From assembly GCA_022763185.1 (NCBI GenBank), contig JALEGL010000006.1:1-64000 (forward strand): 64,000 nt of DNA, in the 5' to 3' direction. This stretch comes from a bacterium. Its GTDB lineage: Bacteria; Bdellovibrionota_G; JALEGL01. A program made the translations under genes and the position numbers. Every line of letters begins with the position of its first letter. Position 1 is the first letter of the stretch. The notes below the pieces were generated by a model that was not told the origin of the DNA, ran no database searches, and worked only from the letters and a program-made list of their open reading frames with translations. Below are positions 24,635 to 36,970 of this stretch, in pieces.

Positions 24635-24711
<77 letters not shown>

Positions 24712-24763
24712 AAACGAGAATTTCATAAAAATACAAATCGTTAGAATAAATCTGTCGTCGGTT

Positions 24764-24842
24764 TAAAGCTATGCTTATGATGAACAAGCCGTAGGCGCCG
24801 TGAAGAATTAGCATAACTTATGGCGATGCCAAAGGCATCGGC
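24764..24842. mobile_element. 79-bp insert splitting the duplicated tRNA end
   Basis: The insert separates GTCGTCGGTT from CAAATCC of the second tRNA 3'-end copy. It contains a hairpin (CGATGCC AAA GGCATCG) near its right end. Size and structure suggest a REP/MITE-type palindromic element. No coding capacity and no target duplication were clear. Confidence 0.45.
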
Positions 24843-24863
24843 CAAATCCGGCTCCCGCTACCA
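24843..24863 (+). repeat. 21-bp copy of the tRNA-fMet 3' end (att-like)
   Basis: These 21 bases are identical to 24691-24711, the last 21 bases of the tRNA including CCA. The preceding 10 tRNA bases GTCGTCGGTT also recur at 24754-24763, so the original duplication was at least 31 bp and was later split by 79 bp. A third, 13-bp fragment GGTTCAAATCCGG lies at 25050-25062. Such 3'-end duplications are the usual trace of tyrosine-integrase insertion; no integrase is in the window. Confidence 0.8.
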
Positions 24864-24911
24864 ATTCCGATCATTTTCCATCAGTTCAATCATGCAAATT
24901 ACGGGTTATTC

Positions 24912-24970
24912 GCCCTTCGGGCTCAACTGTTTTTTTGTGTTGCCTCCGGCAACATGGCGAAGGTCTTTGT
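24912..24970. repeat. R3 structured repeat, left copy
   Basis: Nearly identical to 27180-27237 in direct orientation. Each unit has two mini-hairpins: GCCC...GGGC and GTTGCC TCC GGCAAC. Differences between copies change loops or G-U pairs and keep both stems, which argues for a structure-dependent role. The two copies bracket the A+T-rich cassette. Confidence 0.7.
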
Positions 24971-25086
24971 GCATGGGCTTCCAACTGGATGAATGTGCAT
25001 GTGCGGGTTGGGTTTGGGCCAAGCCCAAACCAGGCACCTGGTTTTTGCTGGTTCAAATCCGGTTTTTTGGTAATAATTATATTTAA

Positions 25087-25749
25087 ATGTATGACTTAAA
25101 AACAGATCAATCCCATAACGAGAAATTTGCAGATGAATATTTTAGAGCAGCTGAAAACCTAAAACAAAATAGTGAAAACTTAAGTTTAATTTTAAGACCG
25201 ACTTTGTATCTTTATAGGCACAGCGCAGAGTTATACTTAAAAGAATGTATCAGAATTAATAAGATGCCCTATTCAGATCAATTATATAAAGACTGGATTA
25301 GATGTAAAAAACCAATTCATGAACGTATGTATTATCCAAATAAAAATTTAAAGGTTTCACGCTTAGACTACATTAAGGAGCTAAATACACATAAACTTTT
25401 AGATCTTTGGAGTTGGTTAAAACCAATTCTTAAAGAATCTGAAATAAATTATCCTTTATACATTGAAAATCTTTTGAAATATGTAGATAGAATCGATGGC
25501 GATGGCCAAGCGCATAGATTTCCAGTTAAAAAAATTGAAAAAAATCGTTTAGTGTCAAATGCTTCTAAAGATCCTGATCTGAAATTATTAAATAAAAATG
25601 AAAGATATATTGCCATGGTGCAAGCTACACAAGGATTTGAAAGTACAAATTTAGATGTTAAAGTACTTATTCCAGTAATTTTAGCAAAACATCACAAACT
25701 CATAGTCATGTTGCGGGATATATTACAACTTTCTAGAAGATCTAGTTAA
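25087..25749 (+). CDS. uncharacterised helical protein, HEPN-like
   Basis: A 220-residue, all-helical, Lys-rich cytoplasmic protein. LYLYRHSAELYLKECI (about 39-54) has the R-H plus E-L-LK pattern seen in HEPN-type helical bundles. THKLLDLWSWLK and DGDGQAHRFPVKK recall uncharacterised HEPN-like proteins of genomic islands. The canonical RNase motif R-x4-6-H is not clearly present, so catalysis is not claimed. First gene of an unusually A+T-rich trio. It starts 24 nt after the last tRNA-end fragment. Confidence 0.5.
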   Translation: MYDLKTDQSHNEKFADEYFRAAENLKQNSENLSLILRPTLYLYRHSAELYLKECIRINKMPYSDQLYKDWIRCKKPIHERMYYPNKNLKVSRLDYIKELNTHKLLDLWSWLKPILKESEINYPLYIENLLKYVDRIDGDGQAHRFPVKKIEKNRLVSNASKDPDLKLLNKNERYIAMVQATQGFESTNLDVKVLIPVILAKHHKLIVMLRDILQLSRRSS

Positions 25750-25844
25750 AAATTTATTCGCTGTATTGTGAGTTGTTATATTTTCTATAATTATCAGGGT
25801 TAATTATTGTTTTAAAAGTTTATATGTATTGATATATAAATATA

Positions 25845-26243
25845 ATGAAAATTTTTAAAATAATATCATTAAAGTTTTTTATGTTTTTATTTATTTTAAC
25901 AAATTCAATTGTTCATGCAGATAACAAGCATTCTGGTAAAATAAAAATAATGACATTGAAGGATAATGACGGATATTCTTATAATTATGGTAAACCAAAA
26001 TTAAGAAATGATCTTTTAACATCAATTACTAAAGAGTTTTCGAAGAAAAAAATTGCTGAATCAATTAAAGATGTAATCAAATTTGTTGAAGAAACAATAA
26101 AAGATACATGTGTTGATAGTGTCGAAATTGCGGTTAGTATAAACACTGAAGGCAAAGCTCAGTTAGTATTTCTTGGTCTTGCTGGAAGCATTAACCTAAC
26201 AGTTATCAATTCTCAAAAAAATAAAATTTGTAGTCAATATTAA
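25845..26243 (+). CDS. small exported protein, trypco-like C terminus
   Basis: A 132-residue protein with a clear signal peptide (hydrophobic about 8-23, cleavage near VHA-DN). The C-terminal half, VDSVEIAVSINTEGKAQLVF and GSINLTVI, resembles the beta pattern of trypsin-co-occurring (trypco1/CU044_2847-like) domains of conflict systems. That resemblance is weak and only by eye. Cytoplasmic trypco domains do not normally carry signal peptides. Very A+T-rich, same strand as its neighbours, 95 nt after the HEPN-like gene. Confidence 0.45.
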   Translation: MKIFKIISLKFFMFLFILTNSIVHADNKHSGKIKIMTLKDNDGYSYNYGKPKLRNDLLTSITKEFSKKKIAESIKDVIKFVEETIKDTCVDSVEIAVSINTEGKAQLVFLGLAGSINLTVINSQKNKICSQY

Positions 26244-26283
26244 CTGTTTAATAATCAAAAATTTGATTAAGTTTCATTTTAAA

Positions 26284-27069
26284 ATGAAAAGAAAAGATAA
26301 ATATTTAAACCATTCAGTATTCAGTGACTTAAGAGAGGTTATAACTTTTTATGATCTTCTCGGATTTTCTGTTATGAGTTTTTTCAGGGGGGGAACAGGT
26401 TCTGTAGTCAATTTTGATACATATATTTTTAGCTCAGTTAAAAACACCCTTGAATCAATAGAATTAACATTAGAACACGGTAAGATAGGAGATGCGTTTA
26501 CTCTTTTAAGAAAATATCATGATTTGTCGATTCTGAGTATTTATTTAAACACCTATCTTTCTGAAAAAAGTGAAAATTATACATATAATAATATTATTGA
26601 TTGGGTGAATAACAAAAAGAAATTACCTGAAAATACATATAAAACTATGTTAAACTATATTGAAAAATATGAAAAATTAAAAAATTTAAAAGTTCTTTTG
26701 AATAAAAGTGAAATTTATATTGATATTAGGAAAAGGTGTAATGACCATACTCACCTTAATTATTTAAATAATATTTTAATCAATGATAATGAGTTTCATT
26801 TTCAAAAAAAAAGTAGATATTTAGATTTGTTTAGAAATGATTTGAAAAATATTTTTGTTTTATTTTTTTCATATACGTTTACACTAAATGAAAGGTATAT
26901 GAATTCTTGTGATTATATAGACTGTTTAGATATGAATATAACTCCTGCAGATGGTTCAGAGTATTGGGTTTCTGAATATGTCCAAAACATTTTTTCAAAA
27001 ATGATCGAGCCATCATATCCAGAAATTGCAAATTTTATTAAAAAACAAACATCTATGGATTTAAAGTAG
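26284..27069 (+). CDS. uncharacterised protein of A+T-rich cassette
   Basis: A 261-residue protein from ATG 26284; a TTG at 26263 in frame would add seven residues. It is rich in Lys, Asn, Tyr and Phe, mostly helical. It contains RKRCNDHTHLNYLNNIL followed by a hydrophobic helix (FVLFFSYTFTL) and the conserved-looking CDYIDCLDMNITPADGSEYW. I recognise no named family, although this layout has the feel of a widespread island protein. Stop at 27067-27069 is followed at once by an R1 repeat. Confidence 0.5.
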   Translation: MKRKDKYLNHSVFSDLREVITFYDLLGFSVMSFFRGGTGSVVNFDTYIFSSVKNTLESIELTLEHGKIGDAFTLLRKYHDLSILSIYLNTYLSEKSENYTYNNIIDWVNNKKKLPENTYKTMLNYIEKYEKLKNLKVLLNKSEIYIDIRKRCNDHTHLNYLNNILINDNEFHFQKKSRYLDLFRNDLKNIFVLFFSYTFTLNERYMNSCDYIDCLDMNITPADGSEYWVSEYVQNIFSKMIEPSYPEIANFIKKQTSMDLK

Positions 27070-27079
27070 ATAATTCAGG

Positions 27080-27132
27080 AATTCCAGGGATAGCTGACTG
27101 AATTACAATAGAATTAAGGTAGCTGTCCCTGG
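27080..27132. repeat. R1 REP-like doublet, copy 1
   Basis: Diverged copy of the R1 element (CCRGGGACAG...CTGAATT, spacer, GGTAGCTGTCCCTGG). The two ends are inverted to each other and would fold into a stem-loop. It abuts the stop of the cassette. Confidence 0.6.
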
Positions 27133-27179
27133 AACTACAGAGATAACTTTCATATTTTGCTATTATGTTCGGGTTCTGA

Positions 27180-27237
27180 GCCCTTGGGCTCAACTGTTTT
27201 TTGGTGTTGTCTCCGGCAACATGGCGAAGGTCTTTGT
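27180..27237. repeat. R3 structured repeat, right copy
   Basis: Direct repeat of 24912-24970 with both mini-hairpins kept (GCCC TT GGGC and GTTGTC TCC GGCAAC with one G-U). It closes the 2.2-kb bracket around the three-gene cassette. Confidence 0.7.
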
Positions 27238-27263: not shown

Positions 27264-28439
27264 TTAACCCATATTTAGGCTTGTGTCTCTTGTAAGTATG
27301 TTCATATAACTTCGGTAAACAAATTTTCGATTTCTTTTTTGATTGGTTGTTTGTTCAAGAAGCTTTAACTCTAATAAAGTTTTTATAGCTCGGTTTAAGG
27401 TATTTTGATTTGATCCTTCTATAGTTTTAGCTAGCTCGGGGACAGTTAAGATGGGAAACTTACAGAAGGCTTCAAATACTTGGAGCACTTTTTGTGAAGC
27501 AGATTCTGTATGAAGGGTTGCCCTATCTTTGTTGTGAAGATGATAGATGTCTTTAGCTGCTTGTTGAGCTATTTCAGAAGTTTCTATGATGCCTTGTAAG
27601 AAAAATTGTATCCAAGATTCCCATTCTCCTTTACTTCTTATATTTGTTAATTTTTGATAATATTCAGTTCGATTCGCTTTAAAAAAATAGCTTAAATATA
27701 CAAGAGGCTTATCTAAAATTTCCCAATGACAAAGCAGTAAAGTAATTAGCAACCTTCCAAGCCGGCCATTTCCATCTAAAAATGGGTGGAGTGTTTCAAA
27801 TTGAGCATGAATCAACCCTGCCTTGATAAGTTTAGGCATTTCATCATCAGTATGAATGTATTTTTCCAAATTCGACATGCCTTCAATTGAAGCTTCAGGG
27901 GGAGGTGGAACAAAGTTGGCAGACTCTAAGGTAGCGCCTGGAGAACCTATCCAATTTGGGCTTTTTTTAAAGCTACCGGGATCTTTAGTTTGACCTCGTA
28001 CGTCTTGAAGTAATATTTTATGCGTTTCTTTTAAAAGTCGATTGGAAATGGGAATTTTATGCACTCTTTCTAAGGAATAGTTCATTGCATTAATATAATT
28101 AGATACTTCAGTAACATCTTGTTGGTTGTGCCGTGACCCATCGTTATCTTCATCTAAAATATCTTCAAGAGAGCATTGTGTCCCTTCAATTTGAGAACTC
28201 AGTAAGGCTTCTTTACGAACAAATAAATACACAAAAAGATCTGGATCCGAAATGATAGATGTTACTCCTTTTAATTCACCAATAGCTCTAGAAGCTTTTC
28301 CATGAAGAGATATAATCTCTGCAGTTATTTTTAGGGGAGGGTTCTTTGGAGGAAGAGGTTCTGGTAAAAAAGAGTAGTAGCCACTTGGTTGTTTTACCAC
28401 GCGTCCGGCTCTATTAGAGATATATTCTTTTGGATTCAT
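27264..28439 (-). CDS. Fic family protein with N-terminal inhibitory helix and C-terminal wHTH
   Basis: A 391-residue class II Fic protein, which typically AMPylates target proteins using ATP. The active loop HPFLDGNGRLGR begins at H218. The inhibitory motif SSQIEG (81-86, S-x3-E-G) is intact upstream, so activity should be self-restrained. A C-terminal winged-helix (about 310-375, LTVPELAKTIEGSNQNTLNR) suggests DNA binding and possible autoregulation. Targets unknown. Its upstream region is A+T-rich with two TTAATTACATTTTA copies. Confidence 0.9.
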   Translation of the reverse strand: MNPKEYISNRAGRVVKQPSGYYSFLPEPLPPKNPPLKITAEIISLHGKASRAIGELKGVTSIISDPDLFVYLFVRKEALLSSQIEGTQCSLEDILDEDNDGSRHNQQDVTEVSNYINAMNYSLERVHKIPISNRLLKETHKILLQDVRGQTKDPGSFKKSPNWIGSPGATLESANFVPPPPEASIEGMSNLEKYIHTDDEMPKLIKAGLIHAQFETLHPFLDGNGRLGRLLITLLLCHWEILDKPLVYLSYFFKANRTEYYQKLTNIRSKGEWESWIQFFLQGIIETSEIAQQAAKDIYHLHNKDRATLHTESASQKVLQVFEAFCKFPILTVPELAKTIEGSNQNTLNRAIKTLLELKLLEQTTNQKRNRKFVYRSYMNILTRDTSLNMG

Positions 28440-28858
28440 GTAATTGAAGCCCTTTTTTAATTACATTTTATGCTTATTTTCTAATTATAATATGTTTTAA
28501 TTACATTTTAACCTTATTATGTAATTAATAGCAATGTTAAATTACAAATTAATTCTGTAAGTGATTGGTTCTGATGATAATTGACGATTCCTTGAATTTA
28601 TTAAGAATACATAGTGTGTCCCACGATTTACAGTTTTGTTTGGTTTTAAACCCGGTTTTTTACAACATTGATGCATTTAAAATATATACTAACTAGTATC
28701 ACAGGGTACTTTCCCTTCTTTATCTGTTAAAATCAATCATGCTTAACTCAAAAAAAAGATACTCTTTAAACTAATTCCGGGGACAGTCGACTGAACTTTA
28801 ATTATGATAACTGTATTGGTTTTTTTCTTAAACTTGTGTGGTTAGCCAAAGAGTTTTC

Positions 28859-28934
28859 GAATCTTGGGACACACTATGTATTCCTAATTCAGATCCATAG
28901 TTCTTACTAGGAATACACAGGGTGTCCCACGATT
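28859..28934. repeat. R2 REP-like inverted pair
   Basis: Two copies of GAATACxxAGTGTGTCCCACGATT face away from each other and can fold into one long hairpin. Equivalent pairs occur at 30849-30919 and 37797-37872; single copies at 28603-28629 and 29107-29132. This doublet layout is that of REPINs. Confidence 0.65.
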
Positions 28935-29043
28935 CCCACTATTCAAAGGAATTTAAAAGTGAAAATAAACCCTAACGGGATGATTTAAGTATAAATAGCG
29001 ACTAAAGAAATCTAATAAACCCGATCGGTTTTATTTTTTTAAA

Positions 29044-29096
29044 AATTCCGGGGACAGTCGACTGAATTACAATTAGAATTAAGGTAGCTGTCCCCG
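29044..29096. repeat. R1 REP-like doublet, copy 3
   Basis: ATTCCGGGGACAGTCGACTG ... GGTAGCTGTCCCCG: inverted ends around an A+T-rich centre. The CAGTCGACTG core is itself a palindrome. Confidence 0.7.
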
Positions 29097-29207
29097 AAAC
29101 TAATGAAGAATACCTAGTGTGTCCCACGATTTCACGATTTAAAATGAAAAAGATAAAATTGATTTAATTTATAGCCAATGCATAGAAGCCAAATAAGCTT
29201 TTACATT

Positions 29208-30769: not shown

Positions 30770-30940
30770 AAATTTCCAATTGTTGTTTTTTCGCATCGTC
30801 TAAAATCCATGGGGATGCTTCTGCAGATATTGAAGTTCCTTTTCAATCCAGGGACACACTGTGTATTCCTAAGTTAGTTCAATCGTTCATATTAAGAACA
30901 TCTAGTGTGTTCCATGATTCAGACTGTCCTCAGAACTTTT

Positions 30941-31005
30941 ACGCACGTTTTTCATGAAAAAACCTATTTACGCACATTTTTCATGGACTGCGCACGTTTT
31001 TCATG
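30941..31005 (+). promoter_or_regulatory. triple direct repeat before the second Fic gene
   Basis: CGCACRTTTTTCATG occurs at 30942-30956, 30971-30985 and 30991-31005, spaced 29 and 20 bp, ending 13 nt before ATG 31019. Likely an operator array; too few and too irregular for CRISPR. Confidence 0.55.
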
Positions 31006-31018
31006 GAATACTGCCTAT

Positions 31019-32521
31019 ATGATAACAAGAGCTTTACCAGAGACTGACGCTTGTTTAGCAGGCTATTCATACCTCATTAGTCATTATGAGCTTAAAGTTC
31101 CTGTGCCAGTAATTCTATCGGCTATTGGACAAAAACATACAAAATACGAAACAGATACCTGGCACGTTTTTACACCTCGCCATGCGCCAGACGAGAATTT
31201 ATACGGGCATTTGACCTTTGCTTTGCGTTATGAAGGTATTGATCTTGCCATTTTAAATGCTCTGTTTCATAAAATATCACCAGCTGAAATAGAACAAATT
31301 GTAAAAAATGAACCAGGAGGAAGCTATGCTCGCCGTATATGGTTCTTATTTGAATATTTAACAAACAGTGAATTGAATATTTCTAATATTAGTAGACGTA
31401 GATATATCGACCTTGTTGATCCCAAGATTCAATATCCCGGACCGTCCCGCCAATCTAAGAGGCATGGCATAAACAATAACCTCCCCGGTGTTAAAGACTT
31501 TTGTCCACTAGTGCGCCGTACAGAAAAGCTGGATGCTTTGATCGGTCAAGACTTGTCTCAAGTGGCATTAGACAGTGTTGGTGCAATTCACCCAGATGTT
31601 TTGATGCGTGCGGCTAGTTTCTTATTACTCGAAGATTCAAAAGCGTCATACGCCATTGAGGGAGAAACACCCCCTCATAATCGTGCTGAACGCTGGGGAC
31701 GTATTATCGGTCAAGCAGGGAAAGCGCCTTTATCAAGGTTTGAGCTGGAGCGACTGCAAAAAGAAGTCATTGTTGATAGCCGTTTTGTTCAAATGGGCTA
31801 TCGTGATGAAGGTGGCTTTATCGGTAGTCATGACCGCTCAACAAACATGCCGATTCCAAGCCATATATCAGCCAAACATCAAGATTTAGACGCATTAATG
31901 AGCGGGCTTATTGAGACTGCAGAACTTTTGAGTGATAGTGATTATCCTCCTGTATTGGCGGCCACACTTATTGCATTCGGCTTTGTCTTTATACATCCTT
32001 TTGAAGATGGGAATGGTCGTTTACACAGGTATTTACTGCATCATGTGTTGATTGAAACAGGCTTTATCCCAAAGGGACTGGTATTTCCTGTTTCATCTGT
32101 TATCTTAAAACGCATGACAGATTATGTCACGGCGCTTGAAGCATATTCGAAACCACGTTTATCTTTTGTTGAGTGGCGTTCCACAGATAAAGGTAACGTT
32201 GAAGTACTTAACGAAACAATTGATCTCTATCGCTATTTTGATGCGACGACTCAGGCTGAATTCTTTTATGAATGTGTACATGAAACAATCACCCAAGCTT
32301 TGCCCGACGAGGTTAACTATCTCCAGCAATATGATGAGATGAAAGCATTTGTGAATAGCTACATTGATATGCCAGATCGTACAGCAGATCTTTTGATACG
32401 CTTCCTTCATCAAAATGATGGAAAATTATCCAACCGCGCACGCAGTAAAGAGTTCTCTGCTCTGACAGATGAAGAACTTCAGGTGTTTGAAAACAAGTTT
32501 GAAGAGATCTTCAAAGCATAA
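31019..32521 (+). CDS. Fic family protein, second type
   Basis: From ATG 31019 the protein has 500 residues; the longer frame from 30905 runs through the operator-like repeats and is less likely. The Fic loop HPFEDGNGRLHR starts at H326 of this form and ends in HR instead of GR. The inhibitory SYAIEG (about 210-215) is present. The N-terminal ~190 residues look DNA-binding or helical (PETDACLAGYSYLISHY, then PVPVILSAIGQ). It is clearly distinct in sequence from the Fic at 27264. Target unknown. It is bracketed by ~120-bp direct repeats, suggesting acquisition as a cassette. Confidence 0.88.
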   Translation: MITRALPETDACLAGYSYLISHYELKVPVPVILSAIGQKHTKYETDTWHVFTPRHAPDENLYGHLTFALRYEGIDLAILNALFHKISPAEIEQIVKNEPGGSYARRIWFLFEYLTNSELNISNISRRRYIDLVDPKIQYPGPSRQSKRHGINNNLPGVKDFCPLVRRTEKLDALIGQDLSQVALDSVGAIHPDVLMRAASFLLLEDSKASYAIEGETPPHNRAERWGRIIGQAGKAPLSRFELERLQKEVIVDSRFVQMGYRDEGGFIGSHDRSTNMPIPSHISAKHQDLDALMSGLIETAELLSDSDYPPVLAATLIAFGFVFIHPFEDGNGRLHRYLLHHVLIETGFIPKGLVFPVSSVILKRMTDYVTALEAYSKPRLSFVEWRSTDKGNVEVLNETIDLYRYFDATTQAEFFYECVHETITQALPDEVNYLQQYDEMKAFVNSYIDMPDRTADLLIRFLHQNDGKLSNRARSKEFSALTDEELQVFENKFEEIFKA

Positions 32522-35466: not shown

Positions 35467-35620
35467 GTTAACAACCTCCATCTATTTTAATCATTTAAAG
35501 CTTAAATCTATCAGAGCTTTATTCTTTTTCATCTAACTTAAGTTATTTTATCCCTATTTGTTTTGACTGGATGGAAACGGAGACTTATATCATTAGGTTG
35601 TTAAACTGGGATGATTGATC

Positions 35621-36970
35621 ATGATGTATTCTATAATTGATATTGAAACCACGGGCTCGTTTTCTGGCCTTCATAAAGTAACAGAAATTGCTATTATTGT
35701 ATTTGATGGCAATAAAATTGTGGACTCCTACCAAACTCTCATTAATCCGCAGCGCAATATTCCTAGTTCTATCACCCGTTTAACCGGCATCACCAATGCC
35801 ATGGTTTCCAGTGCACCTCCTTTCTATAAAGTTGCAAAAAAAATTGTTGAAATGACCCAGTCCTGCGTCTTTGTGGCTCACAACGTAAACTTTGATTACA
35901 ATATCCTTAAAAGTGAGTTCTCAGACTTAGGGTATAACTTCAAAGTTAAAAAACTTTGTACCGTGCGTTTGGCACGTAAAGCACTGCCTGGACATGCCTC
36001 TTACAGTTTAGGTAAAATTTGTAAGGACCTAGGCATTGAAATCAGTAACCGACACCGAGCCATGGGCGATGCCAAAGCTACCCTAGAGTTATTTAAAAAG
36101 ATTCTTACTCAATTGGGGGAGGACCAAGTTTTTAATGCTTATCAAGAAGCTGAGTTACAACTTCCACAACAACTTAATTATTCTGATCTTGAAGACTTAC
36201 CGCAAGAGCCGGGTATTTATTTTTTAAAAGATAAAGAAGATTGTATTATATACATTGGTAAAAGCATCAACATTCAAAAAAGAGTAAAAAGTCATTTTAA
36301 GTTTAAAAACGGTCAAAAGAAAGCTCAACGTATATTTGAGGAAACTTTCAGTATCGATTATATCCTAAGCGGAAGCGATCTTGCAGCCCGTTTATTGGAA
36401 TGTGAGATGATCAAAAAGCACAGACCTCGCCATAATCGCTCACTCAATCGTGCAAGGTTCAGGTACTGCTTGGCACTAGAAGCCGATAAAGCTGGGTACC
36501 TAGATGTTAAAATAAGATCGAACTCGCAGCTGAACTTGTCTTATAAACATGAAGAAATAAAGTTTTTTAGTAAAAAAACAGCCAGCTTGGCAAAGCTTGA
36601 GATTTACAAAAAAGCTTTTGGCATACACTTAGAGCACCCTAAGTACTCAGGGGCCATCGACCAATTAAAGGCTACTTTAGACGCTTTACTTTACAATAAA
36701 AAAATTGAACAGCAATTTGAAAAGTACTTTTATCCGCATTCAGATTTTGATGTTCGTTTAAAGGGAAGGGATAAAGATGAACACGCTTTGATAGAATTTC
36801 GTGATCATCAAATTCAATCTTTATCGTTTATTAAAAATCAGCAACATGTGCAACAGTATAAACTGAGTGAAAATAGTGACATGAAAAATATTTTTTTAAG
36901 TATATACAATAAAAAAAAGCTAAACCTTGTTAAAAAAAGTACAGCAGATACCCAATTAAATTATTTTTGA
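35621..36970 (+). CDS. DEDDh exonuclease fused to GIY-YIG nuclease domain
   Basis: A ~449-residue protein. The N-terminal DnaQ-like exonuclease (about 1-170) has IIDIETTG, VAHNVNFDYNIL and HRAMGDAKATLE. The central GIY-YIG domain (about 195-280) shows PGIYFLKDKEDCIIYIGKS, as in UvrC/Cho. The C-terminal ~170 residues are unassigned. The architecture occurs in several bacterial groups and suggests a DNA-repair nuclease that incises then trims. The start is ATG 35621 or 35624; the frame is open to TTG 35615. Confidence 0.85.
   Translation: MMYSIIDIETTGSFSGLHKVTEIAIIVFDGNKIVDSYQTLINPQRNIPSSITRLTGITNAMVSSAPPFYKVAKKIVEMTQSCVFVAHNVNFDYNILKSEFSDLGYNFKVKKLCTVRLARKALPGHASYSLGKICKDLGIEISNRHRAMGDAKATLELFKKILTQLGEDQVFNAYQEAELQLPQQLNYSDLEDLPQEPGIYFLKDKEDCIIYIGKSINIQKRVKSHFKFKNGQKKAQRIFEETFSIDYILSGSDLAARLLECEMIKKHRPRHNRSLNRARFRYCLALEADKAGYLDVKIRSNSQLNLSYKHEEIKFFSKKTASLAKLEIYKKAFGIHLEHPKYSGAIDQLKATLDALLYNKKIEQQFEKYFYPHSDFDVRLKGRDKDEHALIEFRDHQIQSLSFIKNQQHVQQYKLSENSDMKNIFLSIYNKKKLNLVKKSTADTQLNYF

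Follow-up and report, generated by a model that had tools for sequence, protein, structure and literature searches.

An A+T-rich block of three genes beside an initiator-type tRNA-Met, and the putative HEPN-like and AbiJ-associated families of its proteins

The gene block, its repeats and its neighbours

The window is the whole stretch of DNA that was analysed, i.e., 64,000 nt. The features located in and around the gene block are the following (positions are those of the window):

24635-24711, plus strand: tRNA-Met, CAT anticodon, initiator type by sequence (ARAGORN; Rfam RF00005), divergent from murJ
24843-24864, plus strand: att-like remnant, the last 22 nt of the tRNA repeated exactly (0 expected in shuffles)
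24914-24970, plus strand: 57-nt repeat, copy 1, with a hairpin and T run resembling a terminator, followed by a second mini-hairpin
25050-25062, plus strand: 13 nt of the tRNA T-arm (GGTTCAAATCCGG) repeated exactly, on the left border of the A+T-rich part
25087-25749, plus strand: gene 1, 220 aa, putative non-canonical HEPN-T-like protein (alignment, profile comparison)
25845-26243, plus strand: gene 2, 132 aa, predicted exported protein whose C-terminal part bears a weak likeness to Pepco/Trypco1
26284-27069, plus strand: gene 3, 261 aa, predicted helical protein of a sparse family with invariant LLRKYxD and RCNDHxH
27068-27148, no strand assigned: REP-like inverted repeat with stem GGGACAG/CTGTCCC, also at 28773-29102
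27181-27237, plus strand: 57-nt repeat, copy 2, of the same layout as copy 1
27264-28439, minus strand: Fic protein, SoFic in PADLOC (E 1.5e-114)
30905-32521, plus strand: Fic protein, 538 aa, candidate PDC-S24 in PADLOC (E 6.6e-195)

The three plus-strand open reading frames between the repeat copies are all intact, with gaps of 95 and 40 nt. The GC content of 25071-27069 is 25.3% vs. 37.3% for the window mean, and nowhere else in the window does the GC content fall so low over 2 kb (z about -3.5). A composition unlike that of the neighbourhood, as claimed in the initial annotation, is thus borne out.

The pair of repeats with two mini-hairpins, noticed earlier around the three same-strand genes, is confirmed with a length of 57 nt. 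The copies are GC-rich and identical at 53 of 57 positions. Their longest exact run is 27 nt, vs. at most 17 nt in dinucleotide shuffles of 22-30 kb (n=200). Sequence search of the whole 2.25-Mb genome finds full copies at these two places only; the sole other match is a 27-nt partial copy of the second hairpin on contig C9. The first hairpin is GCCC-TTC-GGGC in copy 1 and GAGCCC-TT-GGGCTC in copy 2, followed by AACTGTTTTTT. The second mini-hairpin is GTTGCC-TCC-GGCAAC and GTTGTC-TCC-GGCAAC, respectively. The first hairpin together with AACTGTTTTTT looks like an intrinsic terminator, and repeat copy 2 is listed as such by the terminator scan.

A small mobile cassette (about 2.27 kb, non-autonomous) using the repeats as attachment or target sequences would account for direct repeats that stand at each end of a sharply A+T-rich unit and are otherwise unique in the genome. 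This is possible but rather doubtful: the copies are 7% divergent and their content is terminator-like, so that duplicated terminators fit equally, as they also do for the partial copy of one hairpin found elsewhere. Moreover, the sampled relatives are no closer than the same order, i.e., too distant for an empty site to be read. In the reading preferred here, the repeats would be transcription terminators insulating the segment, and they may be left over from insertion or duplication.

Integron attC sites are also called «59-base elements». The corresponding RYYYAAC / GTTRRRY pair was sought by eye in the 57-nt repeats; a single half fits, there is no array, and this candidate was rejected.

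Further repeats occur to the right of the block. REP-like elements with GGGGACAG/CTGTCCCC arms are located at 27068-27148, 28773-28815 and 29044-29102, and a further family with GTGTGTCCCACGATT arms at 28598, 28860, 28904 and 29101. The REP-like elements near 27-29 kb are possibly RAYT-type repeats.

The tRNA-Met/murJ site

The tRNA is the sole match of the Rfam scan. Short hairpins with loops of 3 nt follow it one after another at 24712-25070, e.g., GATGCC-AAA-GGCATC and GGTTTGGGC-CAA-GCCCAAACC; such a series is unusual for the window.

The nearest relatives in the sample belong to the same order (three genomes) or to the same phylum (one genome). The tRNA-Met flank is readable in G001 (same order) and G004 (same phylum) only; the contigs of G002 and G003 end there. 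In G001, tRNA-Met is upstream of murJ and divergent from it, with one extra gene between them, and the murJ side (FHA protein, mutL, miaA) matches that of the window. In G004, tRNA-Met and murJ are again neighbours. The DNA 3' of tRNA-Met differs in all three genomes: (i) the window has the A+T-rich gene block; (ii) G001 has unrelated genes past a clean terminator; (iii) G004 has small accessory genes and, about 3 kb away, a tyrosine integrase (PF00589, E 6.8e-36). The 9 kb read in G004 contain no further copy of the tRNA end. The stretch from the integrase to tRNA-Met in G004 (locus L102, 5519-9193) also contains a PIN plus acetyltransferase-reading protein, an ASCH-like protein and a small NTPase.

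A conserved flank, a variable content and tRNA-end duplications are thus found together, as looked for in a tRNA hotspot. Because of the variable content and the tRNA remnants, the site 3' of the initiator-type tRNA-Met beside murJ is, with high confidence, an integration hotspot; insertion by an integrase itself would be a further step, which we infer. The remnants of the tRNA 3' end and the variable cargo at a conserved locus are shared with described tRNA integration hotspots and defence islands (PMC10121019), from which the window differs by having no integrase within the segment in this genome. The tRNA-end copies and the relatives bear out the accessory module at a tRNA site proposed initially. 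Concerning the att site itself, the gene block does adjoin tRNA-Met, but the sequence of the 57-nt repeats is not that of the tRNA end. A probable integration hotspot is documented in this way in a poorly sampled phylum.

The three proteins

Relatives of gene 1 occur in several unrelated families (two-sequence profile, 335 genomes). In eight aligned members P38, R44, E48, L49, K52, H102, D137 and R144 are invariant. The family is covered by no Pfam family: when the eight members were scanned singly, one gave a match at E 0.089 and the rest nothing. The family profile was then compared by hhalign with HEPN PF05168, represented by 17 HEPN sequences collected in this analysis; the score is 27.4 (E 0.0009, 67 columns), vs. 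16.3 for the best of 100 column shuffles (0/100 reach 27.4) and 11.1 for the reversed profile. The aligned pieces are ELxLK with EKxLK, HxL with HxL and FRYP with RYP, the ExxxK motif being aligned. The HEPN-like character suggested initially for protein 1 is supported by this score, which is above those of all the shuffles.

The canonical catalytic motif Rx4-6H is absent from the eight aligned members. Members of HEPN-T lacking the H of Rx4-6H and having an alternative upstream H have been described (Anantharaman et al. 2013, PMC3710099). Gene 1 is called HEPN-like and not a canonical HEPN RNase because the motif is absent, though such HEPN-T variants are known. As judged from sequence comparison, it is likely a HEPN-like protein of a non-canonical HEPN-T type. 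HEPN-T (PF05168, PMC3710099) has ExxxK, a downstream HxL and RYP in the same order as the gene 1 family. On the contrary, the gene 1 relatives are longer (about 180-380 aa), single members are below the Pfam thresholds and no nucleotidyltransferase partner is seen. Most of the relatives appear to be lone genes, without clear defence neighbours. None was found in viral contigs (single-protein scans) or phage records. Across the analysis, sequence searches of solved structures gave no convincing match. Gene 1 would thus represent a widespread HEPN-T-like family that is not in Pfam as such.

Gene 2 has a hydrophobic N-terminus ending VHA-DN, read by eye as a predicted signal peptide. Its C-terminal half (50 residues) resembles Pepco PF24393 (E 0.0015, 19.4 bits vs. 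a gathering score of 27) and Trypco1 PF19493 (E 0.008, 17.2 bits vs. 24.6), both below the cut-off. In profile comparison with Trypco1, 13/100 shuffles equal its score. The AlphaFold model is poor, and the matches in other genomes are weak (E 0.001-0.04). When Trypco1 was defined (Kaur et al. 2020, PMC7159879), it stood beside trypsin-like peptidases belonging to VMAP conflict systems; among the open reading frames scanned near gene 2, neither such a peptidase nor a VMAP/MoxR gene was recognised. Of the exported protein with a trypco-like end that had been proposed, the export part stands, as a signal peptide seen by eye; the trypco-like part stays sub-threshold, with a negative profile control.

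Protein 3 had been described as unrecognised. This is corrected, since clear relatives exist at 37-44% identity: on two plasmids, on a prophage contig and in two genomes (G164 and G150), i.e., 2/384 other sampled genomes. Their state is as follows: (i) on the Candidatus Megaera plasmid the relative is broken by a frame change; (ii) on the Acidithiobacillus caldus megaplasmid it is interrupted, the N-terminal piece being upstream of IS21 genes; (iii) in G164 it is intact and chromosomal; (iv) in G150 it is a C-terminal fragment; (v) on the viral (prophage) contig it is intact, as cargo among terminase genes. The prophage copy was found by a viral-contig scan with the gene 3 alignment; single-protein scans found none, and no relative was found in phage records. 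A separate scan of genome contigs gave one match; it looks like an unrelated membrane protein of MotA/ExbB type and was set aside.

The remnant tRNA ends at the site and the broken relatives (the two plasmid copies, with a frame change in Megaera and an IS insertion in A. caldus, and the G150 fragment) would also fit a segment in decay, i.e., a gathering of leftovers of past insertions without present function. This is unlikely: all three frames are intact in the window, and the residues invariant in families 1 and 3 are still in place.

The neighbours of the gene 3 relatives were also considered. The Megaera relative ends 10 nt before an AbiJ-like/Abi_C gene, the G150 fragment overlaps a downstream AbiJ_NTD3+Abi_C gene by 4 nt, and one further relative adjoins a gene reading as a restriction-type methylase. 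Relatives of gene 3 are thus located directly upstream of AbiJ-type genes (Abi_C, PF14355) in two unrelated replicons. The product of gene 3 is not an AbiJ protein, and no AbiJ neighbour was seen for gene 3 in the window.

The segment R151-C-N-D-H-x-H157 is invariant in 4/4 aligned members and fits Rx5H, i.e., it falls within Rx4-6H. The residue following R in the HEPN motif is usually N, D or H; gene 3 has C. The comparison with PF05168 gives no match (score 14.7, reached by 12/100 shuffles). The PADLOC Csx1 profile gives E 1.1e-4 for one family member only. There is a modest resemblance to the DUF5677 (PF18928) profile, with a score of 25.4 vs. at most 21.2 in 100 shuffles, over 37 columns; the Pfam scan gives 15 bits (E 0.02-0.03) and the gathering score of 27.1 is not reached. 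The R-x3-E helix of DUF5677 aligns with the LLRKYxD helix of gene 3, and the likeness is limited to this one helix region. The AlphaFold2 model, built from two sequences, is all-helical but of too low a quality for a judgement on the fold (pLDDT 58), and it has no meaningful PDB match.

From these comparisons, the family is predicted to be helical, mobile and in part AbiJ-associated. It is rare, is not in Pfam as such and twice has an AbiJ gene immediately downstream. Should this association with AbiJ hold, the gene 3 relatives would offer an easily tested two-gene version of AbiJ defence.

In G150, a defence-like cluster (locus L018, 5566-7646) is composed of nucleotidyltransferase/HepT-like pairs, then the gene 3 fragment and the AbiJ_NTD3-Abi_C gene.

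A joint system or separate accessory genes

The three genes could be considered as one co-transcribed, co-operating and possibly defensive system, the exported protein being a sensor or partner of the HEPN proteins. The same strand, the short gaps (95 and 40 nt), the same composition and the shared borders are in its favour. In all, 13 outside loci of 8.4 to 20 kb, of which 5 come from gene 3 relatives and 8 from gene 1 relatives, were searched in all frames with the family 1 and family 3 profiles and with the sequence of gene 2. None of the 13 loci, a small sample, holds more than one of the three families. The undescribed three-gene system put forward in the initial annotation is not supported, because the families never co-occur in these loci; absence of co-occurrence elsewhere had been named there as evidence against it, and this is what the available sample gives. 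In addition, gene 3 pairs with AbiJ instead in two of the 13 loci, and a protein that is exported would hardly interact directly with RNase-like proteins of the cytoplasm. A joint system is thus very improbable. A more elaborate proposal is that gene 3 belongs to an uncatalogued helical family whose members, in some replicons, serve AbiJ-type HEPN RNases as a small partner encoded on the 5' side, and that it forms here, with gene 1 and with gene 2 as exported sensor, a new abortive-infection variant; its probability is judged slightly lower still.

The genes are probably separate accessory genes of defence or toxin type, gathered locally in a tRNA hotspot near Fic genes. In this preferred explanation as a whole, i.e., an acquired segment in the tRNA-Met hotspot with stand-alone effectors and terminator repeats, to which an even chance is given, what is observed is the location, the composition, the tRNA 3'-end remnants, the variable content in relatives and the families to which genes 1 and 3 are assigned. 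The accessory segment would have been acquired horizontally into the hotspot 3' of the initiator-type tRNA-Met beside murJ. The products of genes 1 and 3 would be helical proteins, HEPN-type or HEPN-like, that work independently of each other; upon a phage or stress trigger, each may act as an RNase or growth-arresting effector, in abortive-infection style. Gene 2 would be an exported protein travelling with genes 1 and 3 and no partner of theirs. Several points count against this explanation: (i) the window segment has no integrase and is not bracketed by an intact att pair; (ii) the 57-nt repeats contain no copies of the tRNA sequence; (iii) the two repeat copies are non-identical; (iv) Rx4-6H is absent from gene 1, and gene 3, despite its Rx5H, has no profile match to PF05168; (v) most gene 1 relatives appear to stand alone, without clear defence genes around them.

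The Fic genes announced nearby are present and are two. A defence context is plausible because both of them, SoFic and PDC-S24, are PADLOC entries; the possible defensive context suggested at first is supported by these neighbours and by AbiJ beside gene 3 relatives. For the genes of the segment themselves, a defence or toxin function may be proposed, with a likelihood just short of one half.

Two other genes of the window deserve mention. That at 35615-36970 has an RNase_T exonuclease domain fused to a GIY-YIG domain. The product of that at 42178-43062 matches the cysteine-rich repeats of Ephrin_rec_like in four places (E 1e-27), although it is bacterial and this domain is known above all from receptors of animals.
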